Of a stretch of DNA of 21,002 nt, positions 1,243 to 17,286 are shown one piece after another (positions within the stretch are counted from its first letter, which is position 1; the number at the start of each line of letters is the position of its first letter). The notes under the pieces are model-generated. The model made no database searches and had not been told where the DNA came from. It saw only the letters and a list, made by a program, of their open reading frames with translations. Source of the stretch: a virus; the IMG/VR virus record IMGVR_UViG_3300033145_001678, positions 1 through 21,002 of that record, one strand, 5' to 3'. The translations under genes were made by a program, and so were the position numbers.

Positions 1243-3893
1243 TGGCCGCCAAGAAGCGCGGACCATCGGCGGTGTCAAAGCGGGCGATCCGCAGCGGGAT
1301 CGATGAGCGGGCGATTGCGGAGGGCTGTTATTTCGACCTGCCGGCGGCGCACCATGTGCGGGAGTTCTTCCGGGAGTTCCTATGTCATAGCAAGGGAGAG
1401 TGGGCCGGCCAGCCGTTTCTCCTTCTGCCGTGGCAGTGGGATGATGTCGTCAAGCCGCTCTTCGGCTGGAAGCGGCGGGACGGCAGCAGGCGGTATCGCA
1501 AGGCTTATATCGAGATCGCCAAAAAATCCGGGAAGGCGCTCGCGTTGGACACACCGCTTCCGACGCCCGATGGGTGGACGGCAATGGGTGATATCGACGT
1601 CGGGGCAACGCTATTCGACGAGAATGGCGAGACCTGCACAGTAGTTGCGGCAACGTCTGTTATGTTGGGCCGCCCATGCCACCGCGTGCATTTCTCGGAC
1701 GATACGGAGATCATCGCCGATGCAGACCACGAATGGCAAACCCGCAGTCTGGCCAAGCACTACAAGATGGGCGTAAGGACGACCGCCGAGATCGCCGCGA
1801 CGATTAGCACTCGCACCGATGGTGCCCGAAATCATTCAGTGCCAGTCGCTGGGCCATTACAGCAGCCGAATCGCGAGTTGCCAATCCATCCATACGTGCT
1901 GGGGATATGGCTTGGCGACGGCCATTCGACTAGCGGCCGCATTACCTGCGGATACGAAGATCTCGCGATTATCGACGAGATACGCAATTGCGGCGAAACC
2001 GTCGAAGAGCGCCCGACGAAGAATGATGGATCAGGCTGTTTTATTATTGGTCGCACTTGTTCGCCAAAGACATCGTTTCAGGCGCGGCTGCGACAGATAG
2101 GCGTCTTCAATAATAAGCATATCCCGGTCGAATACTTGCGGGCCTCAATTCCCCAGCGAGTCGCTCTGCTGCAGGGGCTGATGGACTCGGACGGCTACGC
2201 GGGCGCACGCGGCCAATGCGAGTTCACTACAACCAAGGAAACATTGCGCGATGGGATGCTTGAGTTATTGCGCGGCCTGGGCCACAAGCCAATGCTGGGA
2301 TCTGGTCGGGCGACTATATACGGCAAGGACTGTGGCCCAAAATATCGCGTTCGCTTCCACGCCACGAGACGACAACGAGCCTTTCGGCTTGAGCGTAAAT
2401 GGCGGCGGCAGTTGCCGTCCCCCGACCGGAGCCGCCGGTGCATGATGCGGCAGATCGTGAGCGCGGACGCGATTGAAAGCGTCCCTGTCCGCTGCATAGA
2501 GGTCGATTCCCCATCCCGGTTATATCTTGCCGGGCCAGGCATGGTGCCAACGCATAACAGCACCCTATGTGCGGGCCTGAGCCTGTATCTGTTGATTGCA
2601 GACGGGGAGATCGGGGCCGAAGTCTATTCCGCCGCGGCTGACCGGGAGCAAGCGGGTATCGTCTTCCGCGAAGCGGCTACGATGGTGCGGGCGTCGCGGG
2701 AGTTGGCGGATCACGTTGAGGTCATCGACAGCCGCAAGCGAATCACGTTTCAGCGGACGGGATCGTACTTGCAGGCGCTGAGCCGCGAGAGCGGGTCGAA
2801 CGAAGGCCTGAACATCCATGGCCTGATTTTCGACGAACTGCACGCGCAAAAGACACGGGATTTGTGGGACGCGCTGACCTACGGGGGGGCAGCGCGTCGC
2901 CAGCCGCTCGCCATCGCCATTACCACGGCGGGATTCGACCGGCATTCGATTTGTTACGAACAACGGGAATATGCGCTTCAGGTTTTGGACGGGCGGATAC
3001 CCGACTGGACTTTCTTTCCCTATGTTTGCGCAGCGGACGAGGGCGACGATTGGACCGCCCCGCAGACCTGGGCGAAGGCGAATCCGAGCCTAGGGGTTAC
3101 GGTCAAGGAGGGGGAACTTGCGGAGGCGTGCGCCGAGGCGCAAGCGTCGCCGCTGAAAGAGAATTCGTTCAAGCGGTACAGACTCAATATCTGGACCGAA
3201 CAGGACGTGCGATTCTTGCAAATGAATGAATGGGATGCCTGTGGGAGCGCGGTTGATCCGGAAGCATTACGAGGGCGGCCCTGTTACGCGGGCCTGGACC
3301 TGGCGAGTACGCGCGACCTGAATGCCTTTGTCTTGTTCTTCCCGGACGACGGAAACGCCGTGCTGCCCTACTTCTGGATACCACAGGACACGGCCCGCGA
3401 GCGGGAGCGCAGGGATAAAGCCCCGTACTTGACGTGGGCCAAAGAGGGTCTGATTGAGCTGACGCCGGGCAATGTCGCGGATTACGACCGTATTCGGGCG
3501 CGGGTCAACGAGATTGAGGAGCAGTACGATATTCAAGAGATCGCGATCGATCGCTGGAACTCGCTTCAATTGCAAACGCAGCTCGATGACGATGGATTCA
3601 CCGTTGTCCCCTTCGGTCAGGGCATGGTTTCGATGTCAGCCCCGACGAAGGAATTGGAGAGGCTGATACTCGCCCGTCAACTCGCCCACGGGGGGCACCC
3701 GGTCTTGCGGTGGATGGCGGGTAATATCAGCGTGAAAGAAGACGCGGCTGGCAATATCAAGCCGGACAAGGATAAGTCAACGGAAAAAATCGATGGAATC
3801 GTCGCGCTTATCATGGCGATTGGCCGGGCGATGGTGCGCAAGGAAGGTAGCGACAACGTATACGATGAGCGGGGGCTGCTGTCGGTAGGATGA
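1242..3893 (+). CDS. terL: Terminase large subunit precursor with in-frame intein
   Basis: The 883-residue precursor is the packaging ATPase/nuclease of the HK97-like Terminase_1 group. The first extein (residues 1-98) has the LLPWQW adenine-binding motif and ends in KKSGK, the first part of Walker A. An intein occupies residues 99-439. The second extein resumes at STLCAGLSLYLL, so removing the intein restores KSGKST. Walker B with the catalytic Glu is LIFDELHA at about residues 528-535. The RNase H-like nuclease starts at YAGLDLASTRD (about 682-691). Further acidic positions lie in AIDRW and the terminal DGIVALIMAI segment. Spliced length would be 542 residues, normal for the family. The unspliced precursor should lack a working ATP site. 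Confidence 0.95.
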   Translation: MAAKKRGPSAVSKRAIRSGIDERAIAEGCYFDLPAAHHVREFFREFLCHSKGEWAGQPFLLLPWQWDDVVKPLFGWKRRDGSRRYRKAYIEIAKKSGKALALDTPLPTPDGWTAMGDIDVGATLFDENGETCTVVAATSVMLGRPCHRVHFSDDTEIIADADHEWQTRSLAKHYKMGVRTTAEIAATISTRTDGARNHSVPVAGPLQQPNRELPIHPYVLGIWLGDGHSTSGRITCGYEDLAIIDEIRNCGETVEERPTKNDGSGCFIIGRTCSPKTSFQARLRQIGVFNNKHIPVEYLRASIPQRVALLQGLMDSDGYAGARGQCEFTTTKETLRDGMLELLRGLGHKPMLGSGRATIYGKDCGPKYRVRFHATRRQRAFRLERKWRRQLPSPDRSRRCMMRQIVSADAIESVPVRCIEVDSPSRLYLAGPGMVPTHNSTLCAGLSLYLLIADGEIGAEVYSAAADREQAGIVFREAATMVRASRELADHVEVIDSRKRITFQRTGSYLQALSRESGSNEGLNIHGLIFDELHAQKTRDLWDALTYGGAARRQPLAIAITTAGFDRHSICYEQREYALQVLDGRIPDWTFFPYVCAADEGDDWTAPQTWAKANPSLGVTVKEGELAEACAEAQASPLKENSFKRYRLNIWTEQDVRFLQMNEWDACGSAVDPEALRGRPCYAGLDLASTRDLNAFVLFFPDDGNAVLPYFWIPQDTARERERRDKAPYLTWAKEGLIELTPGNVADYDRIRARVNEIEEQYDIQEIAIDRWNSLQLQTQLDDDGFTVVPFGQGMVSMSAPTKELERLILARQLAHGGHPVLRWMAGNISVKEDAAGNIKPDKDKSTEKIDGIVALIMAIGRAMVRKEGSDNVYDERGLLSVG
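1536..2558 (+). mobile_element. Class 3 (WCT-type) intein with LAGLIDADG homing endonuclease, in terL Walker A
   Basis: A 341-residue insertion lies between extein Lys98 (codon 1533) and Ser440 (codon 2559). It starts ALALDTPLPTPDGW, so position 1 is Ala rather than Cys or Ser. In intein numbering, block B holds DHEW with His65 and Trp67, block F holds Cys320 in VRCIEVD, and block G is PTHN with Thr339, His340 and Asn341. The +1 residue is Ser. Trp/Cys/Thr at these positions with a non-nucleophilic first residue is the published hallmark of class 3 inteins, which splice through the block F Cys and are thought to be of phage origin. Two LAGLIDADG motifs, VLGIWLGDG (121-129) and LLQGLMDSDG (211-220), keep their acidic residues, so homing activity is plausible. 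Parts of the endonuclease region, about 2030-2120, look more AT-rich than the exteins. Confidence 0.92.
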
Positions 3894-4091: not shown

Positions 4092-6842
4092 ATGGGCCTT
4101 TTGGCCGCAATCATAGACCCGAAAGCCGAATTTCGCAGCGGGTTCGCCAATCCCGCGCAGTGGCTTATCGACGCGCTGGGCGCCGGTCCGTCGGCGTCCG
4201 GCATATCGGTCACGGAAGCGAACGCCCTGAAGTTCTCGGCCGTTTACGCATCGCATCGAATCATCGGCGAAACTGTCGGGAGCCTGCCGTTCCTGGTTTA
4301 CAAGCGGGGTGATGATGATGGTCGCCACCGTGCGCCGGAGCACTCAGTATACAAGGTCCTCCACGATCAGGCGAACCCTCATATGACGGCTATGGTCTTT
4401 CGCGAGACGTTGCAGGGGCACATTCTGGGATGGGGCAACGGGTATGCGGAGATCGCGCGGGATGGCAGCGGGAACGTGCGCGAGTTATGGCCGCTGGACC
4501 CCAGCCGGATCGGACCGGTGCTGGCCAGCGATGGCTCGCTCGAATACGTCTACAAGTATCAGAATGGGCAGAATGCGAAACACATCCCCGCCAAAGACGT
4601 TCTGCACATTCCGGGTCTCGGTTTTGATGGCTACATAGGCTATTCACCAATCCGCATGGCCCGCGAGGCCATCGGTCTCGGCCTGGCGGCGGAGCGGCAC
4701 GGGGCGACGTTCTTCGCGAATGACAGTCGGCCGGGCGGCGTATTGGAGCATCCGGGCGTAGTTGAGCAGGAGGCGCATGATCGACTGAAAGCCTCATGGG
4801 AGACGCTGCACAGCCGGGGCAGCGCCCATCGCATTGCTATACTTGAACAAGGCATGAAGTGGCAGGCGACGGCGATTCCGAACGAAGACGCCCAGTGGCT
4901 GGAGAGCCGGGCGTTCCAGGTTCGCGAGATCGCCCGTATATACCGAATTCCGCCGCACCTACTGGCGGACCTCGACCGCGCGACGTTCTGTATGCCCGCC
5001 GACACGGAAGTGCTGACGACGGGTGGTCCCGTCTCGATTGCTGACGTGAATGCGGGCGATGTCGTGTGTAGCTTCGACGAGACGGGCCAACAGCGACAGG
5101 CCACGGTATTACGCTCAGAATGCACCGGCGAAGACGAGATATTGTGCATTCGCACGACCAATCGTAGCGTCAGGATGAATGCCCGCCACAGGGTGGCTAT
5201 AAGGGCGAAGTCGCCGACTCCGCGACCGGGCGCGGGTGGGTATCAGTGCGTGACGTGGGAAACAGTCTGGCGACGGGCTGGCGAATTGAAAGTCGGCGAC
5301 GTACTGATTGCAGCGGACGGCATCGAGAGTGCGGGGCTGGAGCGGTGCCCGACGCGGGACGTGACCGAAGGCTTTGCGGAGTTCTGTGGCCTGCTGCTCG
5401 GCGACGGGAACATCAACAAGAATCACGGCGTCACGATTGCGCGTGCCGCTACGGCGCAGTATATGGACCATTACCGCGATGTAATGGCCGCCGAGTTTGT
5501 CTCTTACGACGGCGGCAACGGGCGAGAAGTACTGACCAAGACGCGGCCCGTGCATATCGGCGAGAGCGACCGGCAGACGCGGTTCTCGTCAGTGCTCGCT
5601 GCAAACGAGTTGACGGAACTAGGACTGGCCGGCACGGCACACACCAAATCGGTCCCCGGATGGGTATTTAAGCTCACGGACAAACTGCGGCTGGCGTTCC
5701 TTCGCGGCTTCCTCGATGCGGATGGTTCCGTTGACAAGAAAGGGCGGATTTCGTATTCGTCGTGCAACGAGAAGATGCTGTCACAGATTCGGCACTTGTG
5801 CATTGCCGTTGGTGTTCCGGTGACGAACATGCGATGCCAGGAAGGCGTGACGACGCTACCTAATGGCAGACAGATCGCATTCCGTCAGTATGCGTTCACG
5901 TGCTCCGACCCCGGCGCGAATCGCCGGATCGGGTCGAATGATCCCCGGTATGTCGCGCGAATGATGGCGGGCAAGCCAATCAATCGCAAGGGCCGCAAAT
6001 ACCCGCGGTATGGCGGCAAAGGCTTTGACGCGCCCGGCATGGCCCTATCGCGCATTACGAGTATCGACCACGATCCCGTGGAAAAAGTCTACGACCTGGA
6101 AGTGGACGGCACGCACTGCTTTATTGCCAACGGGGTCGTCGTCCACAACAGCAACATCGAAGCCCAGGGTATCGAGTTCGTGACCCACTGCATCCGGCCA
6201 TGGCTCGTGCGCTGGGAGCAGGAGTGCAACCGCAAGCTGCTGGCTAACGCGCCGGGTTATTTTTGTGAACATGTCGTCGACGGCCTGCTTCGCGGCGATA
6301 CGGCCAGCCGGTATAGCGCCTATGCGGTTGGCCGACAGTGGGGTTGGCTGAGCACCAACGAGATCCGCCGGCGAGAGAACATGAACCCGATCGACGGGGG
6401 CGACGAGTACCTGGTGCCCATGAATATGACCCCGGCGGCTAAGCGGGCGATCATCGCGGCGCACCGGCCGCTCTTGACAGATATTTGCGGGCGCATCCTG
6501 CGGCGCGAGGCGGGGGCGATCGAGTCAGCCTTGCGCCGCGAGGCGACGTGGAAGACCGAGATAGAGGCCTTCTATAGCGAGCATAGGCAGTTCATCGTCC
6601 GGGCGATTGCACCGGCGATAACGGCGTGCTTGGGCGCATTGCCGGCCACGGTGCGGGGCGATCGAAGCGCGGGTGATTACGCTTGGGGTTTTGCGGAAAC
6701 GCGAGTGCGCCGCGCGATGGCGAAGGCGGCCGATCTCGTTGGCGCGCAACAGACCGCCAGAGAATGTCGCGGCGGCGCGGCGGCGGCGTGGGCGGACGAG
6801 ATATTAACCGAACTGATCGGAGGAGAAAATACCGATGGCTGA
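4092..6842 (+). CDS. HK97-family portal protein precursor with in-frame intein
   Basis: The 916-residue precursor is the dodecameric DNA channel at the head vertex. Family features are SVTEANALKFSAVYASHRII near residues 37-56, followed by SLPFLVY. Further markers are the GNGYAEIARDGSGNV segment and LWPLDPSRI in the clip/stem region. The extein then has FQVREIARIYRIPPHLLADLDRATF (about 275-299), interrupted at the very conserved ATF/SNIE junction. Extein sequence resumes SNIEAQGIEFVTHCIRPW at residue 687. Spliced length is 529 residues. A C-terminal extension of about 110 residues after NPIDGGDEYL is helical and Ala/Arg-rich, longer than the HK97 portal, and of unknown role. The gene is preceded by GAGGGAAT-type ribosome-binding sequence. 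Its last 8 bases overlap the protease start. Confidence 0.95.
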   Translation: MGLLAAIIDPKAEFRSGFANPAQWLIDALGAGPSASGISVTEANALKFSAVYASHRIIGETVGSLPFLVYKRGDDDGRHRAPEHSVYKVLHDQANPHMTAMVFRETLQGHILGWGNGYAEIARDGSGNVRELWPLDPSRIGPVLASDGSLEYVYKYQNGQNAKHIPAKDVLHIPGLGFDGYIGYSPIRMAREAIGLGLAAERHGATFFANDSRPGGVLEHPGVVEQEAHDRLKASWETLHSRGSAHRIAILEQGMKWQATAIPNEDAQWLESRAFQVREIARIYRIPPHLLADLDRATFCMPADTEVLTTGGPVSIADVNAGDVVCSFDETGQQRQATVLRSECTGEDEILCIRTTNRSVRMNARHRVAIRAKSPTPRPGAGGYQCVTWETVWRRAGELKVGDVLIAADGIESAGLERCPTRDVTEGFAEFCGLLLGDGNINKNHGVTIARAATAQYMDHYRDVMAAEFVSYDGGNGREVLTKTRPVHIGESDRQTRFSSVLAANELTELGLAGTAHTKSVPGWVFKLTDKLRLAFLRGFLDADGSVDKKGRISYSSCNEKMLSQIRHLCIAVGVPVTNMRCQEGVTTLPNGRQIAFRQYAFTCSDPGANRRIGSNDPRYVARMMAGKPINRKGRKYPRYGGKGFDAPGMALSRITSIDHDPVEKVYDLEVDGTHCFIANGVVVHNSNIEAQGIEFVTHCIRPWLVRWEQECNRKLLANAPGYFCEHVVDGLLRGDTASRYSAYAVGRQWGWLSTNEIRRRENMNPIDGGDEYLVPMNMTPAAKRAIIAAHRPLLTDICGRILRREAGAIESALRREATWKTEIEAFYSEHRQFIVRAIAPAITACLGALPATVRGDRSAGDYAWGFAETRVRRAMAKAADLVGAQQTARECRGGAAAAWADEILTELIGGENTDG
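4989..6149 (+). mobile_element. Class 1 intein with LAGLIDADG homing endonuclease, in portal gene
   Basis: A 387-residue insertion occupies residues 300-686 of the portal precursor. It begins CMPADTEVLT (Cys1 nucleophile), has a block B-like segment with His67 (ARHRV), and ends VYDLEVDGTHCFIANG then VVVHN, giving the penultimate His386 and terminal Asn387. The +1 extein residue is Ser. This is the canonical class 1 arrangement, unlike the neighbouring terL intein. The endonuclease domain has two intact motifs, FCGLLLGDG (about 132-140) and LRGFLDADG (about 238-246), with both acidic residues present. The insertion site is a highly conserved portal segment, typical of inteins that persist because precise loss is hard. 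Splicing and homing are predicted, not demonstrated. Confidence 0.95.
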
Positions 6843-7758: not shown

Positions 7759-9099
7759 ATGGACGAATTGGATAAACTCAGGCAGCGGCGCGACGCGACG
7801 CTCAAGGCCGCGCAGGAAATTGTTGACGTGGCCAAAGACGAGGGGCGAAAGGTTACGCCGGAGGAGGGCGCGAAGTTTGACGCTCTGATGGTGGAGTACA
7901 ACGATCTCGACGCCGATATTGGGCGGAGAGAGCAGATTAAGGTCGCCGAGGACCGGTTGAAAAAGGTCACCCGGCAGATCGAGCCGGAGCCGATCGCCAA
8001 GCCCATAGGGACCGGCAGTCGGATCGAAGTCATGCCGCCCGGGTATGACATCAAGCTGCGGGCGTTCACCGGCCCCGGCGCCCACGAGCGGGCCTATCGC
8101 GCCGGCATGTGGTGCCGGGCGATGATCTTCGGTGACGGCCGCGCGAAAGACTGGTGCCGAGAGCACGGGCCGGAAATGCGCGTTATGACCGAGGGCGTCA
8201 ATACCGCCGGCGGTTTCCTGGTCCCGACGGAGATGGAAAACGCGATCATCAAGCTTCGCGAGGAATACGGCCTGGCCCGTCGCGTGTGCAAAATCCGCCG
8301 CATGGCCTCGGATACCGAAGTCATTCCCCGGCGCAGCGCCGGCGTGACGAGCTACTTCATTGGGGAGAACACCGCGATCACTCCGAGCGATGTCTCCTAT
8401 AATCAGGTGCAGCTTACGGCCAAGAAGCTCGCTACGGGGACTCGCATATCCAGCGATTTGACGGAAGACGCCGTCGTCAACGTGGCCGAGGACGTCGCCG
8501 AGGAGGCGGGCTACGCATTCGCCGTGAAGGAGGATCAGTGTCTTATCGACGGCGACGGCACGAGTGATTACGGCGGTATGGTCGGCTTCCGCACGAAGAT
8601 GGTTGACGGTAACCACGCGGCCAGCTATATCACCGCGACCGCCGGTGACGACCAGTTCACTGAACTGCTGCTCGCCGACATTATCTCCGTGATCGGCAAG
8701 TTGCCGCAGTACGCGCAAGCGAACGCCGCATGGTACTGCTCGCAATACGCCTGGGGCGCGGGCTTCCTGCGCCTGTTGGGCGCCGTGGGCGGCAACACGA
8801 TTCAAGCGCTGACAGCGGGTGCGGCTAAAGAATTCATGGGTTACCCCGTGGAGCTTTCTCCCGCGATGCCGTCGGCGACCACGGCGTATAACCTGACGCC
8901 CATGTTGGCGTTCGGGGACATGAGCAAGGCGGCGACGCTGGGCGACCGGCGCGGAATCACCGTCAAGGTCGACGATAGCATATATGCGGATTACGATCAG
9001 CTCTATGTTCGGGTTACAGAGCGGATTGACATCGTCGTTCATGACATCGGGGATGCTTCCAGTGCGGGGCCGCTCGTCGGCCTCGTTGGCCAGACCTAA
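7759..9099 (+). CDS. Major capsid protein, HK97 fold
   Basis: The reading frame is open from 7657, but the start is placed at the ATG at 7759, 7 nt after GGAGG, giving 446 residues. The N-terminal 100 residues (DELDKLRQRRDATLKAAQEI and following) are charged coiled coil, matching the scaffold-like delta domain removed by the upstream protease. The mature shell begins near TEGVNTAGGFLVPTEMENAI. The E-loop/P-domain region includes VIPRRSAGVTSYFIGENTAI, LTAKKLATGTRISSDLTEDA and the helix with EDQCLIDGDGTSDYGGMVG. The A-domain includes AAWYCSQYAWGAGFLRLLGA. The C-terminus is DISVVHDIGD-like, typical of HK97 gp5 relatives. The exact cleavage site cannot be read from sequence. The Lys/Asn crosslink residues were not assigned. 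Confidence 0.95.
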   Translation: MDELDKLRQRRDATLKAAQEIVDVAKDEGRKVTPEEGAKFDALMVEYNDLDADIGRREQIKVAEDRLKKVTRQIEPEPIAKPIGTGSRIEVMPPGYDIKLRAFTGPGAHERAYRAGMWCRAMIFGDGRAKDWCREHGPEMRVMTEGVNTAGGFLVPTEMENAIIKLREEYGLARRVCKIRRMASDTEVIPRRSAGVTSYFIGENTAITPSDVSYNQVQLTAKKLATGTRISSDLTEDAVVNVAEDVAEEAGYAFAVKEDQCLIDGDGTSDYGGMVGFRTKMVDGNHAASYITATAGDDQFTELLLADIISVIGKLPQYAQANAAWYCSQYAWGAGFLRLLGAVGGNTIQALTAGAAKEFMGYPVELSPAMPSATTAYNLTPMLAFGDMSKAATLGDRRGITVKVDDSIYADYDQLYVRVTERIDIVVHDIGDASSAGPLVGLVGQT

Positions 9100-9118: not shown

Positions 9119-9556
9119 ATGCTTCCACAAGGTAAACAGGTGATTTGCATCGCGCAGGCCTCGACGACTAACGCCGCTACGGCGACGGGGAACGTCGACA
9201 CGCTTGGCTACGATTTTCTGACGCTCGATGTCATTATGTCGACATCGGACGACACTACCAATAACCCCACCGTGTTCAAGCTGGCGGAGTCGGACGATAC
9301 GGTCGTCACGAACTTTGCGGATATCACGGCGTTTGTCGGCGACGGCACCGGTGGCTGGACTATTCCCGCCGCGGTCACGTCCGGCGACTGGGGCGTGAAG
9401 TTCAACGTGGACCTCAAGGGGCGAAAGCGCTACCTGAAGCTGTCGGTCAGCCCGCTGACCACGCAGGTCATCACGGCGATCGGGAATCTGTATCGGGGCG
9501 ACGAGGCGCCGGTGAACACGACTGCTGCTGATGTCAAGGCCCTGATCGAGGGGTAA
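9119..9556 (+). CDS. Probable capsid decoration or minor head protein
   Basis: The start at 9119 is chosen because AGGAGGAGG lies at 9101-9109, a very strong ribosome-binding site. The product is 145 residues. It is beta-rich, with LDTLGYDFLTLDVIMST-like strands (GNVDTLGYDFLTLDV near residue 24-38), the segment KLAESDDTVVTNFADIT and LKGRKRYLKLSVSPLTTQ. Proteins of this pattern, directly after the capsid gene, recur in environmental phage genomes as unnamed structural proteins, from memory. The strong ribosome-binding site implies abundant expression, consistent with a stoichiometric head protein. No enzymatic motif is visible. The call rests on position, size and strand-rich character. Confidence 0.6.
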   Translation: MLPQGKQVICIAQASTTNAATATGNVDTLGYDFLTLDVIMSTSDDTTNNPTVFKLAESDDTVVTNFADITAFVGDGTGGWTIPAAVTSGDWGVKFNVDLKGRKRYLKLSVSPLTTQVITAIGNLYRGDEAPVNTTAADVKALIEG

Positions 9557-9612
9557 GCGGGGAGTAGGAGGAGGAAGGGGCCGGCCGGCTTCCTTTCCGT
9601 TCAGGTTCGGCT

Positions 9613-9628
9613 CCCGCCTTCGGGCGGG
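9613..9628 (+). terminator. UUCG-tetraloop hairpin after the head-protein gene
   Basis: CCCGCC-TTCG-GGCGGG forms a perfect 6-bp stem capped by the very stable UUCG loop, extendable by a wobble pair and one more pair. It sits in the 125-nt gap between the decoration gene and the next small ORF. No T-tract follows, so termination is not certain. It may instead protect the abundant capsid mRNA 3' end. The rest of the gap shows only purine-rich sequence. Confidence 0.4.
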
Positions 9629-9681
9629 GGTCGGCCTGGATGGAGGGAGCACCTCTATTGTGAAACAGGAAAGGGAGCACG

Positions 9682-9831
9682 ATGACGGAAGGGACGACGC
9701 TGCACTGTCTCGCGGCGATGATGAATGCCGTCGGGTTTGACGACATCAAGATCTGGAAGCTGACCGAGCGGCCCGCCGACAACACCGAATGCCGGGGCTT
9801 CGCCTACGAAAGGAAGGCGATCAATGGCTGA
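9682..9831 (+). CDS. 49-residue ORF resembling a methyltransferase C-terminus
   Basis: This ORF has an ATG after AAAGGGAGCACG and ends in TGA overlapping the next gene by 8 nt. The product contains LAAMMNAVGFDDIKIW. That spacing (L, MM, G, DI, W) matches LGQLMAQAGLTDIRPW at residues 123-138 of the methyltransferase domain encoded next door. It therefore looks like the last structural piece of a class I SAM methyltransferase without its cofactor-binding half. It could be a remnant of a duplicated or replaced methyltransferase or a genuine small partner protein. An in-frame stop at 9661 precludes a longer N-terminus. Function is not assigned. Confidence 0.5.
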   Translation: MTEGTTLHCLAAMMNAVGFDDIKIWKLTERPADNTECRGFAYERKAING

Positions 9832-11044
9832 TCCGGTCAAGCTCAATCTCGGCGGCGGCGGCGTCGATCTGCCGGGCTATACGAATATCGACCGCTCTGC
9901 CGGCGGCGAGGCGTACCCGCTCAAGGATTACGCCGACAACAGTGTGGACGAGATCAGGGCCTCGCATTTGCTGGAGCACTTCAGCCACCGCAAGACGCCG
10001 GCGGTCCTGGGCGAGTGGGTGCGGGCGCTGAAGCCCGGGGGCGTGCTCAAGATCGCGGTTCCGAACTTCACCTGGATCATTGAGCAATACAATGGCGAGA
10101 AGGCCGGCGACTACCCGCTCGAAGGCTACCTGATGGGCGGCCACACGGATAACAACGATTGCCATGGGGCGATATTCAATGAAGAGAAGCTTGGGCAGTT
10201 GATGGCGCAGGCGGGCTTGACGGATATAAGGCCGTGGGCGGCGGACGCCCGGGATTGCTCGGCCCTGCCGGTATCGTTGAATCTCCAAGGCGCAAAGGCG
10301 ACCTCGTCCGTTACGCCGGCGGTCGGCGCATCGGTCGGCGCATCGGTCGTATCGCCCTTGCCGATGAAGGTCATTGCCGCGATGTCCGTGCCGCGACTGG
10401 GCTTCATGGACAATTTCTTCTGCGCGTTCGCGGCCTTGCTGCCGTTAAAGATTGAGTTGCTCAAGCATTCGGGCGCATTCTGGGGACAGTGTCTGGAACG
10501 GTGCATGGGCCAGGCGATCAACCAGGGCGCGGAGGCGATACTCGCCATAGATTATGACACGGTGTTCACGAAACGCGACGTGGAGACGCTCGTGCGTCTC
10601 CTGGCCGATCACCCGGAGGCGGACGCGATAGCATCAGTCCAGGCGAGTCGAACGCGGGGCATGCCGATGATGACGGTGCACGGGCTGGACGGCAGGAGCA
10701 TCCAGCGGGTGGATGCCGACGTATTCAAGCCGGACTTATATCAGATTCACACGGCGCATTTCGGTCTGACGGTGATTCGCGTCTCGTCGCTCAAAGATAT
10801 GCCGCACCCGTGGTTTTGGTCGAAGCCCGCGCCGGATGGTTCGTGGGGCGATGATCGAACGGATGACGACATCTATTTCTGGCGGCAGTGGGAGAAAGCG
10901 GGTAAGGCGCTGTATCTCGCGAATCGGGTGCCGATCGGTCACGCGGAGATGATGGTGATTTGGCCGGACCAGAACTTCGGCGTCATCTACCAGCATCCGA
11001 GCGAATTCTATGAGAAAGGGAAGCCGGCGGAGGCGTGGAGGTAG
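9824..11044 (+). CDS. SAM methyltransferase-glycosyltransferase fusion protein
   Basis: This 406-residue protein has two enzyme domains. Residues 1-157 resemble a class I SAM-dependent methyltransferase: LNLGGG (7-12) is motif I, followed by GYTNIDR, DEIRASHLLEHFSH (42-55) and LKPGGVLKIAVPNF (69-82). A Gly/Ala/Ser/Val linker (about 158-180) is encoded partly by two exact 12-nt direct repeats at 10322-10345. Residues 181-406 resemble a GT-A glycosyltransferase: start MKVIAAMSVPRLGF, metal/nucleotide-sugar DxD motif as AIDYDTVF (DYD at 243-245), then DGSWGDDRTDDDIYFW (338-353) and IGHAEM (371-376). It sits in the head operon between capsid and connector genes, so modification of virion protein or glycan, or of DNA, are candidates. 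The acceptor is unknown. The start overlaps the preceding ORF (ATGGCTGA). Confidence 0.82.
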   Translation: MADPVKLNLGGGGVDLPGYTNIDRSAGGEAYPLKDYADNSVDEIRASHLLEHFSHRKTPAVLGEWVRALKPGGVLKIAVPNFTWIIEQYNGEKAGDYPLEGYLMGGHTDNNDCHGAIFNEEKLGQLMAQAGLTDIRPWAADARDCSALPVSLNLQGAKATSSVTPAVGASVGASVVSPLPMKVIAAMSVPRLGFMDNFFCAFAALLPLKIELLKHSGAFWGQCLERCMGQAINQGAEAILAIDYDTVFTKRDVETLVRLLADHPEADAIASVQASRTRGMPMMTVHGLDGRSIQRVDADVFKPDLYQIHTAHFGLTVIRVSSLKDMPHPWFWSKPAPDGSWGDDRTDDDIYFWRQWEKAGKALYLANRVPIGHAEMMVIWPDQNFGVIYQHPSEFYEKGKPAEAWR

Positions 11045-11061
11045 GGGTCTCCACAAAGCTC

Positions 11062-11076
11062 CCTGCCGGCAGGCAG
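11062..11076. repeat. GC palindrome repeat, copy 1
   Basis: CCTGCC/GGCAGG is a perfect 12-bp palindrome at 11062-11073, followed by CAG, and is related to the longer palindrome at 16112-16137. It lies in the 103-nt gap between the fusion enzyme gene and the next small gene, upstream of a CACGAAGGGG sequence. The rest of this gap holds an AT-richer stretch and the GAAAGGA ribosome-binding site at 11134-11140. Confidence 0.6.
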
Positions 11077-11147
11077 ATTTCACGAAGGGGACGATTTATA
11101 CAATTATGGATTCGCAGCGTTAATGTACTTCCTGAAAGGAATGCCTC

Positions 11148-11345
11148 ATGGACAACGAAACGAAGTGGACGACGCCGATGCCATTGGTATCGGTGGAAAG
11201 AGATGGCAGCCAGGTTACGTTTGTGTTTGACGACCTGTACGGCTGCCGGGAGTTTGGGTTTGTTTGTCGCAAAGACGCCAACGGCTTCCATGTTCAGTAC
11301 GATTGTGAGCCCACAGAGGAGGCGTCCATCGCCGCAGAAGGGTGA
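11148..11345 (+). CDS. Hypothetical 65-residue protein, possible paralogue of the 17356 gene
   Basis: This ORF has a GAAAGGA ribosome-binding site about 8 nt upstream of the ATG. The product is small and beta-like, with KW at 6-7, DGSQ at 19-22, GF at 37-38 and YDC at 51-53. The gene at 17356 places KW, DGSQ, GF and YNC at almost the same positions (5-6, 21-24, 37-38, 52-54), so the two may be distant paralogues. Both are preceded by a CCTGCC/GGCAGG repeat. No known family was recognised. Confidence 0.6.
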   Translation: MDNETKWTTPMPLVSVERDGSQVTFVFDDLYGCREFGFVCRKDANGFHVQYDCEPTEEASIAAEG

Positions 11346-11410
11346 GTCCGCAGAGAAACACGGCGCCGGCGGCCTTGATGCGGACCTGCCCGGCGTGCGG
11401 CTATACGTAG
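11342..11410 (+). CDS. Possible 22-residue microprotein with CxxC motif
   Basis: A GTG start overlaps the previous stop (GTGA), reading MSPQRNTAPAALMRTCPACGYT before TAG. The CPACG knuckle resembles half of a zinc ribbon. The remaining intergenic sequence to 11482 holds only an 11-codon ORF and the GAAAGGAATGCAAAGGAAAG purine-rich leader of the next gene. With one knuckle and no strong ribosome-binding site, this may be a degraded gene end or chance. Confidence 0.25.
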   Translation: MSPQRNTAPAALMRTCPACGYT

Positions 11411-11482
11411 CGCGGAGCATGTGTAAGCCGGGCGGCGGCATGGTGAAACTGTGACCGAAAGGAATGCAAAGGAAAGCAGGCG

Positions 11483-11761
11483 ATGAGAATCAAACTGAAA
11501 CAGGCGTGGGGCGAGTACTCGGTCGGGACGATCCTTGAGCCGCATCCCGGCCTTGCGAAGAAGCTGATCGACGCGAAGATCGCGATGGAGGTCAGGGGGC
11601 CGAAGGTCAAGATCGCGCGGTCGCCGGGCGAGCAGGAGACGGGCGAGGCGGACCCCGAGGCCGAACGGGCGGTGACGCCCCCGGCCAAGCCGAAGCGAAA
11701 ACGCAGGGGGGCCAAGGCGAAGGCCAAGGACCGCGAAGGAGACATAACGAATGGCGACTGA
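11483..11761 (+). CDS. Small phage protein with lysine-rich tail
   Basis: This 92-residue product has two parts. Residues 1-40 (MRIKLKQAWGEYSVGTILEP, then a short helix ending in AKIAMEV) resemble the compact VGxxIxxxxGxAxxLIxAxxA pattern of small proteins found in phage head operons, from memory. The rest is low-complexity and charged, first acidic (QETGEADPEAE) then strongly basic (KPKRKRRGAKAKAK). The basic tail suggests DNA or capsid-lumen contact, which is inference. Its end overlaps the next gene start by 11 nt. A purine-rich GGAAAG site (11471-11476) precedes the ATG. Confidence 0.7.
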   Translation: MRIKLKQAWGEYSVGTILEPHPGLAKKLIDAKIAMEVRGPKVKIARSPGEQETGEADPEAERAVTPPAKPKRKRRGAKAKAKDREGDITNGD

Positions 11762-12161
11762 GGAAATCCAAGAGGGGCCGACGACCACCCTTCGTGTAAG
11801 CGAAACGGCTATCGCCGTGGTCGCGGGTGCGGCCGCCGACATCATAGAGTTCATTATCCCACCCGGTTCGACGCACATGGGCGTCCAGATCAAAAACAGC
11901 CACGGCGCGACGGCGTTCGACGCCTTCAACATCCTGCGCCAGATGCACCCGGACGGCGCGTGGGAGACCATAGCCGACGCGGCGGGCGATTACACGACCC
12001 CGCAATCCCCGATCATCGAGGCGAGCGCAAGCCCCGTAACCCTAGCGGCGGGGGCGAGCGTGTATCTGCGGATCGAAGTCAAGGGCATGTGGGCGATCAA
12101 GTTTCAGGCGAGCGGGAATGGCGGCGTCTCGGAGGCCGAAGTCTACGCGACGATAAGGTAA
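11751..12161 (+). CDS. Beta-rich putative virion protein
   Basis: This 136-residue product alternates short hydrophobic strands (TTTLRVSETAIAVV, DIIEFIIPPGSTHMGVQIKN, VYLRIEVKGMWAIKFQASG) with Gly/Ser/Thr turns, suggesting a beta sandwich. There are no Cys pairs or enzymatic motifs, and no signal peptide. Its position inside the head block, downstream of the capsid gene, suggests a decoration, head fibre or carbohydrate-binding role. No named family was recognised. The start at 11751 lies inside the end of the preceding gene and follows AAGGAG at 11736-11741. Confidence 0.65.
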   Translation: MATEEIQEGPTTTLRVSETAIAVVAGAAADIIEFIIPPGSTHMGVQIKNSHGATAFDAFNILRQMHPDGAWETIADAAGDYTTPQSPIIEASASPVTLAAGASVYLRIEVKGMWAIKFQASGNGGVSEAEVYATIR

Positions 12162-12174
12162 TTGAGGGGAAATC

Positions 12175-12552
12175 ATGGCGACACGATATACACAGAGCGA
12201 AATAAGTCCCGTAGACCATCCGGCTTTCACCTATTTCTCGGCCAAGGTCGATGTCGCGGCGGGAGCAACAGAAACGCTCAAGGCCAACGCGGCGGCGGGC
12301 GTCGAAGTGTGGCTTTATGGCTATTCCTTCCATGCGGGCGTAGCGGCTGGAACCTACGTTTTGCTCAGCGATACAACCCCCTTGACAGGGGCGAAGCCCG
12401 TAGGCGTCAACGGCGGGGGCAACCGCGATCGCGGATATCTCGATGGGCCCATCCTCAAGTGCGCCGCTGCGGAGGCTTTGAAAATGACCACGGTAGGCTG
12501 CGCCATTGATGGTGAGATCAACGGGTACCTTGTAGACACAAGCCTGCTGTAA
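12175..12552 (+). CDS. Beta-rich putative virion protein
   Basis: This 125-residue product reads like a jelly-roll or beta sandwich, with YFSAKVDVAAGATETLKAN, then VEVWLYGYSFHAG, TYVLLSDTTPLTG and KMTTVGCAIDGEINGYL. There is no catalytic signature. It shares general size and strand character with the products of 9119 and 11751 but no clear sequence identity. The ribosome-binding site is GAGGGGAAATC upstream of the ATG. A structural role is inferred from its neighbours. Confidence 0.65.
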   Translation: MATRYTQSEISPVDHPAFTYFSAKVDVAAGATETLKANAAAGVEVWLYGYSFHAGVAAGTYVLLSDTTPLTGAKPVGVNGGGNRDRGYLDGPILKCAAAEALKMTTVGCAIDGEINGYLVDTSLL

Positions 12553-12563
12553 GGAGCTGGAGG

Positions 12564-12848
12564 ATGGCTACGCGAGCGATAAGTGTGAGAAAAGATGAGG
12601 GCCTGCCGACCGTGGACCGTGAGAGGGCGGGCGGGCACATTAAGTACCTCTGCGTCGACGCCGTTGCAGGCGACGCCGTGCAGGTGGACGTGCTGGTGAA
12701 CGGCGCAAAGGTGGAGAGCCTCGGTCCATGGGTCGCTTCGGTGAAGCCCGGACGGAAGGCCGTTGTGCAGGTGCGGATGGTGGTGGATGACAACCATCCG
12801 TTGGATGCGCTTGAGGCGTCGCCGGAGGAGAAGCTGATTCATGGCTGA
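12564..12848 (+). CDS. Hypothetical 94-residue head-operon protein
   Basis: This product has a charged N-terminus (ATRAISVRKDEGLPTVDRER), a central beta-rich part (VQVDVLVNGAKVESLGPW, AVVQVRMVVDD) and an acidic end. No family was recognised. It is preceded by AAGGAGCTGGAGG at 12552-12564, a strong ribosome-binding site. Its stop lies inside the ATGGCTGA overlap with the next gene, suggesting that both are translated together. Confidence 0.65.
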   Translation: MATRAISVRKDEGLPTVDRERAGGHIKYLCVDAVAGDAVQVDVLVNGAKVESLGPWVASVKPGRKAVVQVRMVVDDNHPLDALEASPEEKLIHG

Positions 12849-14232
12849 CAGATTCCTCATCCCGGCTGGCGGAGTCTGGGCCGATGCCAACTCAGATATC
12901 TGGGCCGCGTCCAGCGGCGGCGCAGCCGACGAGGGCGGGCTCGTTGCCGATACTGACGTGGCGGTGCTGGATTCTGAGTCGGGCGACCTGGAAATTGCTC
13001 TTGGCGCGACCGTCGCGTGCGTTGGGATGAGAATGACAGGCTACACGGGGCAGGTGGTTTTTAATAACAGCCTGCTCGACATCAACGGTCGCGTGGTCGA
13101 TTTTGGCGGTGAAGGGACGATAATCCAAGACGGAGGCGGTACTATTGCGATTGGTGGTGCGGGGCACCTGAACCACACATTTTGCGATGGGGCCGGGTTT
13201 ACTGATCCAGGCGTACTTATCATCTTCGACGCCGTCGGCGGCGAGGACAACCCGACGCTTTCGCCCTCGACCTCGGACTTCCCCACCCTGCCCGCCCTCA
13301 CGATCGACAACGCCGTGAACAGCTTCATCGTGGGCGCAAGCAGCAGCGGCCTGCGGGTCGGCGGCGACCTCACCTTCACCACCGGCGGCAAGTTCGACAC
13401 GACCACGAACGCCGTGAGCACCACGCACTCCGGCACGTCGGCGCTTGCTTGGAACGACGAGACAAGTCGGCTTTACCACTACATACTGGGCGAAGGGGCT
13501 GTAATTACCTTGCAGGCCCGTTCTTGGTTCTCGGCCTTCACACGGGGGGCGAGTGGAACGCTGACGGGCTTCCACGAGATTATGCTAGTTTTGGAGGGCG
13601 ATGATAAATGGGTCGAAGGCGATGCTGAGATCAGCGTATCCGCCGTCAATTTTTTGGCGGACGTAGCCGGCGCGACACGAGAAATTGGGGCGATTGCGCT
13701 ACCCGATGTAACAGGTGAGGTTCGTGTGGGGAGACAACGCTACCTTCGTCTTGTACAGACAGGCGATTGGCTGATCGGGCCAACGTTGCGGATTCAGGAC
13801 TATATAAACGGTCAACATGCTCAACTCGACTGCAAGCGGTCGGATCTGAGGGTTGATGGAGATATTGAGCTAGGCCGCCCCGCCGTGGATAAGGGCGGCG
13901 GGTTCCTGCTCTGCGGCGAGGGCGTCATGGACTGGCGGGGGGACGTGAAGATCGCGACCGACAGCAACGCCGGGGCCGATGACCAGAACAAGATCGAGAC
14001 GGAAAGCGCCTACATCGCCTTGGGCGGCGCCCTCGACGCAACGGGCATCCTGCTGACCGGCACGGGTGCGGCGCACGTCATGGGCGGAACGGTGCAGAAC
14101 ACGGCCGACAAGGGCGTGACGGGGGCGATCCACTGCCACGGGACGACAGACGGCGGCAACAACGACGCCAACGTGACCTTCGATGAGCACGCGTCGCCGG
14201 GGTCGCTGGCGGCGATGGGGGTGGGAGTATAA
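12841..14232 (+). CDS. Beta-solenoid-like virion surface protein
   Basis: This 463-residue protein opens with RFLIPAGGVWADANSDIWAA. That Gly/Trp-rich start recalls phage structural proteins beginning with RYWVGGTGNW-type repeats (from memory). Many short strands punctuated by Gly, Asn and Asp follow, for example DINGRVVDFGGEGTIIQDGG, VGGDLTFTTGGKFDTTTNAV, LRVDGDIELGRP and MDWRGDVKIATDS. The pattern fits a right-handed parallel beta-helix. No catalytic motif was found. Candidate roles are head fibre, spike or host-polysaccharide binding. It lies in the head block rather than beyond the tape measure, which is unusual for a receptor-binding protein. No N-terminal secretion signal is visible, as expected for a virion component. 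Confidence 0.65.
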   Translation: MADRFLIPAGGVWADANSDIWAASSGGAADEGGLVADTDVAVLDSESGDLEIALGATVACVGMRMTGYTGQVVFNNSLLDINGRVVDFGGEGTIIQDGGGTIAIGGAGHLNHTFCDGAGFTDPGVLIIFDAVGGEDNPTLSPSTSDFPTLPALTIDNAVNSFIVGASSSGLRVGGDLTFTTGGKFDTTTNAVSTTHSGTSALAWNDETSRLYHYILGEGAVITLQARSWFSAFTRGASGTLTGFHEIMLVLEGDDKWVEGDAEISVSAVNFLADVAGATREIGAIALPDVTGEVRVGRQRYLRLVQTGDWLIGPTLRIQDYINGQHAQLDCKRSDLRVDGDIELGRPAVDKGGGFLLCGEGVMDWRGDVKIATDSNAGADDQNKIETESAYIALGGALDATGILLTGTGAAHVMGGTVQNTADKGVTGAIHCHGTTDGGNNDANVTFDEHASPGSLAAMGVGV

Positions 14233-14235
14233 GCC

Positions 14236-14295
14236 ATGTCGCTTAGCGATCGGGAGAACTGCGGGCCGGACACGGCGGAACAGGGGGTGACCTAA
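14236..14295 (+). CDS. Possible 19-residue leader ORF before the connector gene
   Basis: ATG at 14236 reads MSLSDRENCGPDTAEQGVT and stops with TAA directly abutting the connector ATG (TAAATG). It fills the otherwise empty 63-nt gap. Its only supporting evidence is the perfect junction, which could serve to reload ribosomes onto the connector gene. It may be chance. Confidence 0.2.
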   Translation: MSLSDRENCGPDTAEQGVT

Positions 14296-14850
14296 ATGGC
14301 GGCGGAGAGCGCGCCGGTCACGACCAGCGAGGCCAAAGACTGGCTGCGCCTCGATATCGCCGACGACGATACGATGATCGGCGGCCTCCTGCTGGCGGCG
14401 ACACATTACGCCGAGACCTTCACCGGGCGCACATTGGTGACGGCCACGAAATATCATTACCTGACGGGGTGGGAGTATCCGATCGAATTACCGGAATTTC
14501 CGCTCGTGTCGGTCACGTCCATCAAGTACATCGACCCCGACGGTGTGGAGCAGACGCTGGCGGCGGCGCTCTACGACGTGGATACGGTGATCGAGCCGGG
14601 GTGTGTCCGCCTCGGTTACGGCGATAGCTGGCCGGCGCTGCGCGGGGACGAGAACGGCATCACGATAACCTACGTCGCGGGCTACGGTGCGGCGGCGGAT
14701 GTGCCAGACGGGCTGAAGGTGGCGATCAAGATGATGGTCGCCAACTGGTATGAGAATCGGGAGGCCGTCTCGGAAGGCCAGAAACTATCGCCGGTTCCGA
14801 TGGCGGTTGAAATGTTGCTATGGCAATATAGGCATGTGGAGGCGGGCTGA
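14296..14850 (+). CDS. Head-tail connector protein, HK97 gp6-like
   Basis: This 184-residue protein fits the phage gp6-like connector family, which forms a ring below the portal. Features are SEAKDWLRLDIADDDTMIGG near residues 11-30, the AATHYAETFTGRTLV helix (about 34-48), the ELPEFPLVSVTSIKYIDPDG beta segment, ITYVAGYGAAADVPDGLKVA and the closing MMVANWYENREA helix. Length is close to family members with both N- and C-terminal halves. It begins a canonical block running connector, head closure, gp10-like, tail completion. Its stop shares one base with the next ATG (TGATG). Confidence 0.9.
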   Translation: MAAESAPVTTSEAKDWLRLDIADDDTMIGGLLLAATHYAETFTGRTLVTATKYHYLTGWEYPIELPEFPLVSVTSIKYIDPDGVEQTLAAALYDVDTVIEPGCVRLGYGDSWPALRGDENGITITYVAGYGAAADVPDGLKVAIKMMVANWYENREAVSEGQKLSPVPMAVEMLLWQYRHVEAG

Positions 14851-15182
14851 TGCGGGCGGGTAAGCTACGGCATCGCGTGGAGATCCAGAGCAATGCGCCA
14901 ACGCAGGATAGCTACGGGGAACCCATCGCCTCATGGACTACGAGCGATACTGTTTGGGCCGCGATCGAGCCGCTGGGCGGCCGGGAGTTGCTGCGGGCGC
15001 AGGAGATCAACGCGGAGGTCACGACTCGCATTCGGGTCCGGTATCCAGGTGCGCCGGGGGCGAGCACGCTGACGCCGGACGATCGGATCAAGCACGGGGC
15101 GCGAATCTTCGAGATCGCGGCGGTCATCAATCCTGAGGAACGGGACCGCGAGCTTGAACTGCTCTGCGTGGAGGCCGTTTGA
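14850..15182 (+). CDS. Head closure / head-tail adaptor protein (SPP1 gp16-like)
   Basis: This 110-residue protein starts MRAGKLRHRVEIQSNAPTQD, the typical opening of the Phage_H_T_join family, followed by the conserved WTTSDTVWAAIEPLGGRE core and RIRVRYPGAP and DRIKHGARIFEIAAVIN motifs. These proteins plug the portal-connector channel after packaging and offer the tail docking face. Length, motif order and position between connector and gp10-like protein fit. Both ends are coupled by TGATG overlaps. Confidence 0.92.
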   Translation: MRAGKLRHRVEIQSNAPTQDSYGEPIASWTTSDTVWAAIEPLGGRELLRAQEINAEVTTRIRVRYPGAPGASTLTPDDRIKHGARIFEIAAVINPEERDRELELLCVEAV

Positions 15183-15628
15183 TGGCTGATGGGGTGAGGA
15201 TTAAACTAGAGGGCGCGGCGGACTTCGAAAAAGCTCTTGACCAGCTTGTGGCCAAGGTCGCCAGGAAGATCGTCACGCAGCCGATCCGCAAAGGCACGAA
15301 GACGATCGCCGAAAACGCCAAGGCTCGCACCCCGGTGCGAACAGGCGCAATGAAAAAGGCGATAACCGTCCGGGCATCGAAGACCAAGCGGCGCGGCGAG
15401 ATATCGTTCAACGTTATCTTCGACACGAAACGATATTCGCGGCTTGTGAGTCATTCAAAGGCCGGCAGGCGGTTTTTCTATCCCGCCGCGATCGAATACG
15501 GAACGTCGCGCCAGGCGGCCAAGCCCTTTATGCGGCCCGCATTCGACGCACAGAAGGCCCCGGCGCTGCGCACGATTATGAACGATATTCGGTGCGGCAT
15601 TGAACAGCAAGCGGGGACCGCGACATGA
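15182..15628 (+). CDS. HK97 gp10-like tail-completion protein
   Basis: The product is 148 residues from the ATG at 15182, preferred over the in-frame TTG at 15179 because it overlaps the previous stop as TGATG, like its neighbours. Family motifs are VRIKLEGAADFEKALDQLV, the helix with NAKARTPVRTGAMKKAI (the conserved TPVxTG), then FYPAAIEYGTSRQAAKPFM, where the family has the conserved EYGT and PFMRPA. It fits the HK97-gp10_like family, involved in tail joining or tail assembly. The stop overlaps the next start by 4 nt (ATGA). Confidence 0.92.
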   Translation: MADGVRIKLEGAADFEKALDQLVAKVARKIVTQPIRKGTKTIAENAKARTPVRTGAMKKAITVRASKTKRRGEISFNVIFDTKRYSRLVSHSKAGRRFFYPAAIEYGTSRQAAKPFMRPAFDAQKAPALRTIMNDIRCGIEQQAGTAT

Positions 15629-16155: not shown

Positions 16156-16845
16156 ATGGCGGATACTGCACAAGGTACGAGGTTCCAGGTGGGCGACGGG
16201 GCGACGCCGGAGTTATATACCGATCTGGCGGGCGTCAAGAGCATCAGCGGCCCCAGCTTGGCGAACCCCACGGTCGACGCGACGGGCCTGCTCGATATGG
16301 CCCGGCGGAAAATCTCGAAGCAGCTCTGCGAATGCGGGCCGGTCGTCCTGGGCCTGCACTTTGACGCCTGCTCGGCCAACGACCAGGACGCGCTTGTCGA
16401 TAAAGTCATCGCCGGGAGCGGGGAGAGCAATTACATGGTTTGCTGGTCGAATCTGGACGCGAACAGCATGGCGATCAACAACGTCGATACGGTCAATGAT
16501 CAACTGGACTTTGTCGCTGCGCACGGGCTCCACACCGGCCAGCCGATTCGCCTGACGACTGACGGCGCATTGCCGACGAGTACGCCGCAGGTTGTTGTCG
16601 GGACCACCTACTTCGCGGGCTATACCGACGCGGATTCGATCACAGTTCATTTGACAAACGCGGATGCCGTCGCGGGCGCGAACAAGATCGACTTCACGGC
16701 GGCGGGCGCGAGCAATAATAATGTGACGTTCGGGACGAAGTGGGGGTTCGCCGCGCTGGTCCAGGGCGCCACGCCAAGCGGCACGGCGGGCGAGCCGCTG
16801 GCCGCCACGCTGAACTTTGAGATATCTGACAGCGTCGTCCTCTAA
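16156..16845 (+). CDS. Major tail (tube) protein with inserted domain
   Basis: This 229-residue protein starts ADTAQGTRFQVGDG and has LAGVKSISGPSLANPTVDAT (about 23-42), characteristic of siphovirus tail tube proteins, and ends in TPSGTAGEPLAATLNFEISD. Between about residues 100 and 190 lies an inserted domain: NVDTVNDQLDFVAAHGLHTG, QPIRLTTDGALP and GTTYFAGYTDADSITVHLTN. That AHGLxTGxxxRLTTxGxLP ... TxYF pattern recurs as a module in other phage structural proteins, from memory. Removing it leaves roughly the length of the next gene product. Inserted domains in tube proteins usually project from the tail surface. The weak GGAAAT site lies 9-14 nt upstream of the ATG. Confidence 0.85.
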   Translation: MADTAQGTRFQVGDGATPELYTDLAGVKSISGPSLANPTVDATGLLDMARRKISKQLCECGPVVLGLHFDACSANDQDALVDKVIAGSGESNYMVCWSNLDANSMAINNVDTVNDQLDFVAAHGLHTGQPIRLTTDGALPTSTPQVVVGTTYFAGYTDADSITVHLTNADAVAGANKIDFTAAGASNNNVTFGTKWGFAALVQGATPSGTAGEPLAATLNFEISDSVVL

Positions 16846-16887: not shown

Positions 16888-17286
16888 ATGGCGGACATTG
16901 CACAACTTACAACGATTTCATGGAATGGCACGACGATCCCCAGGATCACCTCGTTCAATGGGCCGAGTATGGGGACGCCGATTATCAATGTGCCGGACCT
17001 GGATGATACGGCGGTGGAGAAGATTTCCAGCGCCCTGTTCGACGGCGGGCAACTGTCGCTAAGCCTGAACTTTGAGGCGGATAATGCCGTGCACGATGCG
17101 ATGGTCGACGACAATATTGCGGGCACACCGCGGACCGTCGTCCTGCAATTCCAAAATGGGACGGCCGCGACCAGCGAGTATTCATGCACCGCGTTCTGCA
17201 CGCAATTCACGCCCAGCGGTAATACGGGCGAACAACTGACGGCTGACGTGACGCTGGATATCACCGGGGCTGTGACCATCACATAA
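16888..17286 (+). CDS. Second tail tube protein paralogue
   Basis: This 132-residue protein shows the same fold landmarks as its upstream neighbour without the insertion. It has ITSFNGPSMGTPIINVPDLD at about 20-39 (compare SISGPSLANPTVDATGL), the SALFDGGQLSLSLNFEADNA strand pair (compare CECGPVVLGLHFDACSAND), and TPSGNTGEQLTADVTLDITG at the end (compare TPSGTAGEPLAATLNFEISD). It is either a second tube subunit or the main one. AAGGAG at 16874-16879 gives a better ribosome-binding site than the first copy has, suggesting it may be the more abundant product. Both end before a palindrome-bearing gap. Confidence 0.82.
   Translation: MADIAQLTTISWNGTTIPRITSFNGPSMGTPIINVPDLDDTAVEKISSALFDGGQLSLSLNFEADNAVHDAMVDDNIAGTPRTVVLQFQNGTAATSEYSCTAFCTQFTPSGNTGEQLTADVTLDITGAVTIT

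Follow-up and report, generated by a model that had tools for sequence, protein, structure and literature searches.

To our knowledge, only a handful of phages have been shown to have glycosylated virions. In the mycobacteriophages Che8, Corndog and Myrna, phage-encoded glycosyltransferases (GTs) glycosylate the capsid and the tail tube, according to the passage of PMC12363180 that cites Freeman 2023. Among other viruses, the A064R protein of chlorovirus PBCV-1 builds the capsid glycan with two rhamnosyltransferase domains and a methyltransferase domain (PMC7019647), and a capsid protein is the proposed substrate of A197, a GT-A enzyme of STIV (PDB 2c0n; PMC4187194). The cement protein Bbp16 of phage BPP-1 (PDB 3j4u) is a jelly roll of 140 residues, and its dimers attach to the outer face of the capsid (PMC3863775). 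Here, we analysed a block of genes inside the head module of the virus record IMGVR_UViG_3300033145_001678; the whole 21,002-bp record is referred to as the window.

An expanded interval between the capsid and connector genes

The window carries, in order, a Mom-like gene, the small and large terminase, portal, S78 protease and HK97 capsid genes, and then the block (9119-14295), downstream of which lie the connector, head closure, neck, tail terminator, tail tube and tape measure genes. The gene preceding the block encodes an HK97-fold major capsid protein (MCP; 7759..9099, + strand; Pfam Phage_capsid PF05065, E 9e-42; phrog_10, E 3.7e-55; the query ran from 7753), and its downstream boundary is a gp6-like head-tail connector gene (14296..14850, + strand; PF05135, E 1.3e-10; phrog_40, 6e-26). 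Seven credible genes on the same strand separate the end of the capsid gene (9099) from the start of the connector gene (14296); a doubtful 65-aa ORF (11148..11345, + strand) had a relative in 0 loci. Across 53 loci with a related capsid and connector, the median capsid-to-connector distance was 1365 bp, compared with approximately 5.2 kb in the window, and a distance above 4 kb was otherwise seen only in locus L039 (7.1 kb), indicating that the expansion in the window is a real outlier. The unusual gap of about 5 kb pointed out in a preliminary description of this DNA was therefore borne out, and the genes that it listed were all present and co-directional. A promoter and terminator scan of the window returned the same counts as in shuffled sequences.

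The Mom-like DNA modification protein (80-775; PF25680, E 7.5e-47) is encoded directly upstream of the small terminase, and a relative is present in locus L079 too. Inteins with LAGLIDADG-type domains interrupt the neighbouring packaging genes for the large terminase (1242-3893) and the portal (4092-6842); the portal intein matched Intein_splicing (1.9e-8) and LAGLIDADG_3 (7e-9), and the matches of the terminase intein were weaker. Two adjacent genes at 16156-16845 and 16888-17286 both matched the major tail protein phrog_158 (9e-5 and 3e-13, respectively), a possible duplication of the tail tube protein.

A widespread core and a lineage-specific insertion

Related loci were collected from viral contigs with an enzyme query (37 loci) and a capsid query (38 loci) and from bacterial genome bins with a GT profile (10 loci), and family members in these loci were assigned by iterated profiles. 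In three of the loci (L018, L042 and L081), two segments had a match to the major capsid family, with the protease gene between them in L018 and L042. The results revealed a recurring order of capsid gene, 9119-type jelly-roll gene, GT gene, 11483-type small-protein gene (not detected in every locus) and connector gene in approximately 65 related loci, and since many loci are close relatives, these counts overstate independence. The 9119-type gene was located immediately 3' of the MCP gene in 70 of 71 loci. Two counts were chosen to avoid query circularity: the GT was present in 26 of the 32 capsid-query loci reaching the 9119-type gene, and a 9119-type gene stood upstream of the GT in 9 of the 10 GT-profile loci from bacterial genome bins. 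Six loci carried the jelly roll without a GT, suggesting that the 9119-type protein goes with the capsid rather than with the enzyme, and that the GT is dispensable for the capsid type of the window.

The products of 11751, 12175 and 12564 and the 463-residue protein encoded after them had a relative in none of the related loci. The block thus consists of two parts, a widespread core (9119, 9824 and 11483) and a separate lineage-specific insertion (11751-14232). The preliminary description had read 9119-14295 as one coordinated block and had proposed to look for it as a unit in other phages; the core half recurred, whereas the second half was missing from every related locus found, and the single unit was rejected. 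Its pairing of capsid surface proteins with a modifying enzyme fits the first half, in which a cement-like jelly roll and a GT are conserved after the capsid gene, without extending to one block.

The 9119 product is predicted to be a capsid-associated jelly roll

The first core gene (9119..9556, + strand; the query began at codon 4, position 9128) encodes a protein of 145 aa that matches phrog_5707 (E 2.7e-8) and is predicted to be a jelly-roll, capsid-associated (cement/decoration-like) protein. AlphaFold, run with 33 sequences, returned a jelly-roll-like sandwich with a pLDDT of 84.4. The structure prediction proposed in the preliminary description thus yielded a beta-rich fold for this product; its claim of several small beta-rich proteins held for this one only, and the 11751, 12175 and 12564 products are still candidates.

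The model was aligned with the BPP-1 cement protein 3j4u_H (VIA-align Z 8.1, 113 residues, 17% identity) and with the Carin1 mature capsid chain 8cjz_A (VIA-align Z 7.4 across 113 residues), two phage capsid chains that it matched over nearly their full length, and generic jelly rolls matched it equally well or better, with unrelated ones lying within 2 units of Z 8.1; we therefore read the match as a resemblance of fold. A PDB sequence search with the jelly-roll profile gave nothing significant, including no match to Bbp16. The top Foldseek matches of the model, ephrin receptors and carbohydrate-binding modules with TM-scores mostly of about 0.55 or lower, are generic jelly rolls and were rejected as relatives. 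A cement or decoration role of the 9119 product is likely because of its genomic position.

A methyltransferase-GT fusion encoded next to the jelly-roll gene

The second core gene encodes a fusion of a SAM-methyltransferase-like N-terminal domain (approximately residues 1-171; 9824..10336, + strand; phrog_6636, 2.3e-6; Methyltransf_23, 8e-6; Methyltransf_11, 4.5e-5) and a GT-A-type GT C-terminal domain (10337..11044, + strand; phrog_1574, E 3.6e-6). In the methyltransferase half, the G-x-G region was conserved in 17 other full-length fusions, with G10, G12, G18 and further positions at least 90% conserved. In the GT half, D72-x-D74, D96, Q102, R105 and H202 were invariant in 30 sequences, the DxD being a metal/nucleotide-sugar motif. 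The family phrog_1574 was matched by 21 of 30 GT relatives, and 17 of 30 GT sequences matched a Pfam GT2-type family (best PF13632, 2.5e-7; also PF00535), while the GT half of the window itself fell below the Pfam cut-off (PF00535, Glycos_transf_2; 13.7 bits vs 23.3). A PDB sequence search with the GT profile found nothing significant, the best hit being STIV A197 (E 0.53). With its Methyltransf_11/23 half and its GT half, the product is the modifying fusion enzyme that the preliminary description had named.

The methyltransferase domain is modular. A different one is present in L039 and L038 (Methyltransf_9 in L039), the GT stands alone in many phages, and L032, L034 and L035 encode a similar domain in a gene of its own, located upstream of the capsid gene. 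In L019 (6418-9152), a GT alone precedes the connector gene and a methyltransferase-GT fusion follows it.

The fusion enzyme had no membrane-length hydrophobic segment (maximum 19-residue Kyte-Doolittle mean, 1.51), and nearly all loci with good coverage encoded it within the cluster of head genes. Both observations argue against an enzyme that modifies the host surface polysaccharide for superinfection exclusion or seroconversion, although phage-borne GTs acting on the host surface are known in general and SAM-methyltransferases of the matched Pfam types act in glycan loci too. Phages usually encode host-surface modification in separate morons that include membrane proteins, and we regard such a function as quite unlikely here.

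The GT recurs beside unrelated capsids and shares its slot with other carbohydrate enzymes

In related loci, the slot of the fusion gene also holds other enzymes. The GT is replaced by a CMP-sugar-type cytidylyltransferase in L049 (CTP_transf_3, 4e-22), group-1 GTs are added in the slot in L002, and in L085 (885-2220) a sulfotransferase gene (7.5e-9) and a cytidylyltransferase-like gene separate the methyltransferase-GT gene from the jelly-roll gene. Because of these occupants, carbohydrate chemistry on a locally encoded product is favoured.

The window GT was found to be homologous to phrog_1574 members beside SU10-type capsids (hhalign probability 97.5, E 7e-12). The GT gene lies one gene after the SU10-type capsid gene in L101 and one gene after the annotated capsid gene in ctvy9321, and directly 3' of the capsid gene in L162 and in the cultured Microcystis phage Mel-JY34. 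The SU10-type cases (L101, L162 and Mel-JY34) indicate that the place beside the capsid gene is a recurrent position of the GT in unrelated capsid types. A 9119-type jelly roll was not found in the SU10-like phages with the GT; the jelly roll therefore cannot be the general GT target, and any target common to both lineages would more probably be the capsid protein.

The location of the GT gene in unrelated phages, flanked by the capsid and connector genes and away from replication genes, and the presence of a CMP-sugar-type enzyme and a sulfotransferase in the same slot also speak against an action on phage DNA, by which the fusion enzyme would glycosylate and methylate a hypermodified base, like T4-type DNA glucosyltransferases, together with the Mom-like protein. 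Such an activity would agree with the Mom-like gene at the start of the window, and virus-encoded DNA-hypermodifying GTs have been described, as indicated by work cited in PMC12619734. However, a thymidylate-synthase/hydroxymethylase homologue (PF00303) was found in 0 of 12 related records, which are incomplete ones, and we assign this function a low probability.

The pre-connector insertion encodes a probable fibre-like protein

The last core gene (11483..11761, + strand), between the GT and connector genes, encodes a small protein with a basic tail; it had no Pfam, PHROG or NCBIfam match, and 38 family members were identified in related loci after profile iteration. The small proteins encoded by the insertion are lineage-specific. 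For the 11751 product (11751..12161, + strand), one remote relative was found, UFOVP1367_5 of LR797314.1 (tblastn E 3e-5, 33% over 82 residues), which an uncultured phage with a P2-type order of genes encodes in its head module. No relative was found for the 12175 product (12175..12552, + strand), none in the fetched loci for the 12564 product (12564..12848, + strand), and none in viral contigs for the 11751 and 12175 products. The nearest relative of the window, L039, carries at the same pre-connector place an unrelated insertion whose products include a LamG-lectin-like protein (3e-21) and a fibre-like one, which suggests that this is a cargo site. The L039 insertion (11598-15264) encodes a 573-aa fibre-like, a 241-aa and a 298-aa LamG-lectin-like protein with signal-peptide-like starts, which are odd for virion genes.

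The gene at 12841..14232 (+ strand) encodes a protein of 463 aa, whose residues 3-84 belong to the GW ('RYWVGGTGNW...SGGAGG') viral fibre-like family (family HMM E 1.1e-7). The GW profile was seeded from a family consensus and then tested; when it was run against 13,339 sequences, 200 of which were shuffles of the 463-residue protein, the next best value was 0.042. Residues W13, W21, S25, G27, D44, S47 and G48 were common to all 17 aligned GW sequences. No relatives of the 463-residue protein were found by peptide seeds, by tblastn in phages or by phmmer in related loci, and the link is made by the GW profile only. AlphaFold with 17 sequences gave a pLDDT of 43.5, a value below what a usable model requires, with only residues from about 41 to 90 near 62-70 and showing a strand ladder. 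A beta-solenoid is probable for this protein; of the beta-solenoid-like protein in the preliminary description, the N-terminus now has a family, and the fold is unconfirmed by the model.

The GW family is very large (409 viral contigs in one scan) and uncharacterised. The members examined are 360-1450 aa long and adjoin adaptor and small head/fibre genes in podophage-like contigs, and in the cultured phage P19250A a member is encoded downstream of the genes for host specificity and the tail fibre. Because of these neighbouring genes (adaptor, head/fibre and tail-fibre), the 463-residue protein is probably a fibre-like virion protein, on the head or the tail side. Family members (L087-L166) reach about 1450 aa with repeated domains and are almost absent from cultured phage records.

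The GT and a GW protein co-occur in SU10-like phages; a profile search found both in 8 of 80 GW loci, and in 6 of 6 loci with a visible SU10-type capsid gene, as in L162, where the order is MCP, GT, a 129-aa product, GW protein and adaptor. This co-occurrence would suit an enzyme whose main substrate is the fibre and not the shell, glycosylating the 463-residue protein and the adjoining small proteins. However, about 65 loci among the window's own relatives have the GT without any GW protein, and we consider the fibre rather unlikely to be the main substrate.

Discussion

We consider it fairly probable that the block serves virion glycosylation, with the capsid and/or cement protein as the presumed target and a displayed fibre as accessory cargo. 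This explanation builds on the gene order and its conservation, the enzyme family, the invariant catalytic-type residues, the jelly-roll model and the N-terminal family of the 463-residue protein. The conserved half (9119-11761) would form a capsid-surface module, in which the 9119 cement protein would bind to the outer face of the HK97-type shell. As a soluble cytoplasmic enzyme, the 9824 product would add a sugar to a virion protein encoded close by (capsid and/or cement), and its methyltransferase half would probably O-methylate this sugar or another one linked to it. The 11751-14232 genes may be accessory cargo inserted at a variable pre-connector site, with the 463-residue protein most likely a displayed fibre-like protein. 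The benefit would be a changed surface, affecting for example particle stability, adhesion or shielding.

A broader proposal, to which we give slightly less than an even chance, is that the place beside the capsid gene has been taken by this one GT family in no fewer than two unrelated capsid lineages, and that its partner domains and the enzymes of the slot (methyltransferases, a CMP-sugar enzyme and a sulfotransferase) are interchangeable, so that the capsid coat would be chemically variable between related phages, with a linked cargo site adding displayed fibres, and that the arrangement is widespread in uncultured tailed phages. If true, sugar-coated capsids would be common and variable in nature. 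The unknown PHROG phrog_1574 becomes testable, and a test is feasible since the cultured phage Mel-JY34 carries a GT homologue directly after its capsid gene.

The preliminary description knew of no system described with such content, an assessment that was partly wrong: virion glycosylation in phages and other viruses is known, and the GT recurs with a GW protein in SU10-like phages. In a limited literature search, we found no description of the head-module position, the methyltransferase fusion or the exchangeable slot.

Compared with BPP-1 Bbp16, the 9119 product is likewise predicted to be a jelly roll of about 140 residues from an HK97-fold phage, and the alignment spans residues 2-133 of its model; no sequence-profile match links the two, and the two-fold dimer and the capsid binding are known from Bbp16. 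Like STIV A197, the window GT is a small soluble viral enzyme of GT-A type with a DxD motif, whereas A197 comes from an archaeal virus and the sequence match between them is not significant. The window enzyme resembles PBCV-1 A064R in joining GT and methyltransferase in one polypeptide; A064R, compared here by description, belongs to a eukaryotic virus and differs in the order and number of its domains. SU10-like podophages (SU10_MCP, GP4 gp80-like and SU10_adaptor) resemble the window in encoding a homologous GT close behind the capsid and a GW protein near the adaptor, but their head modules have an unrelated capsid family and, in the members examined, neither the 9119-type jelly roll nor the methyltransferase fusion. 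As in the mycobacteriophages, a phage-encoded GT is proposed to act on the capsid; unlike there, the GT lies between the capsid/cement and connector genes and is fused to a methyltransferase. Virion glycosylation is known already from mycobacteriophages, STIV and chloroviruses, and the block in the window would be a variant of it.
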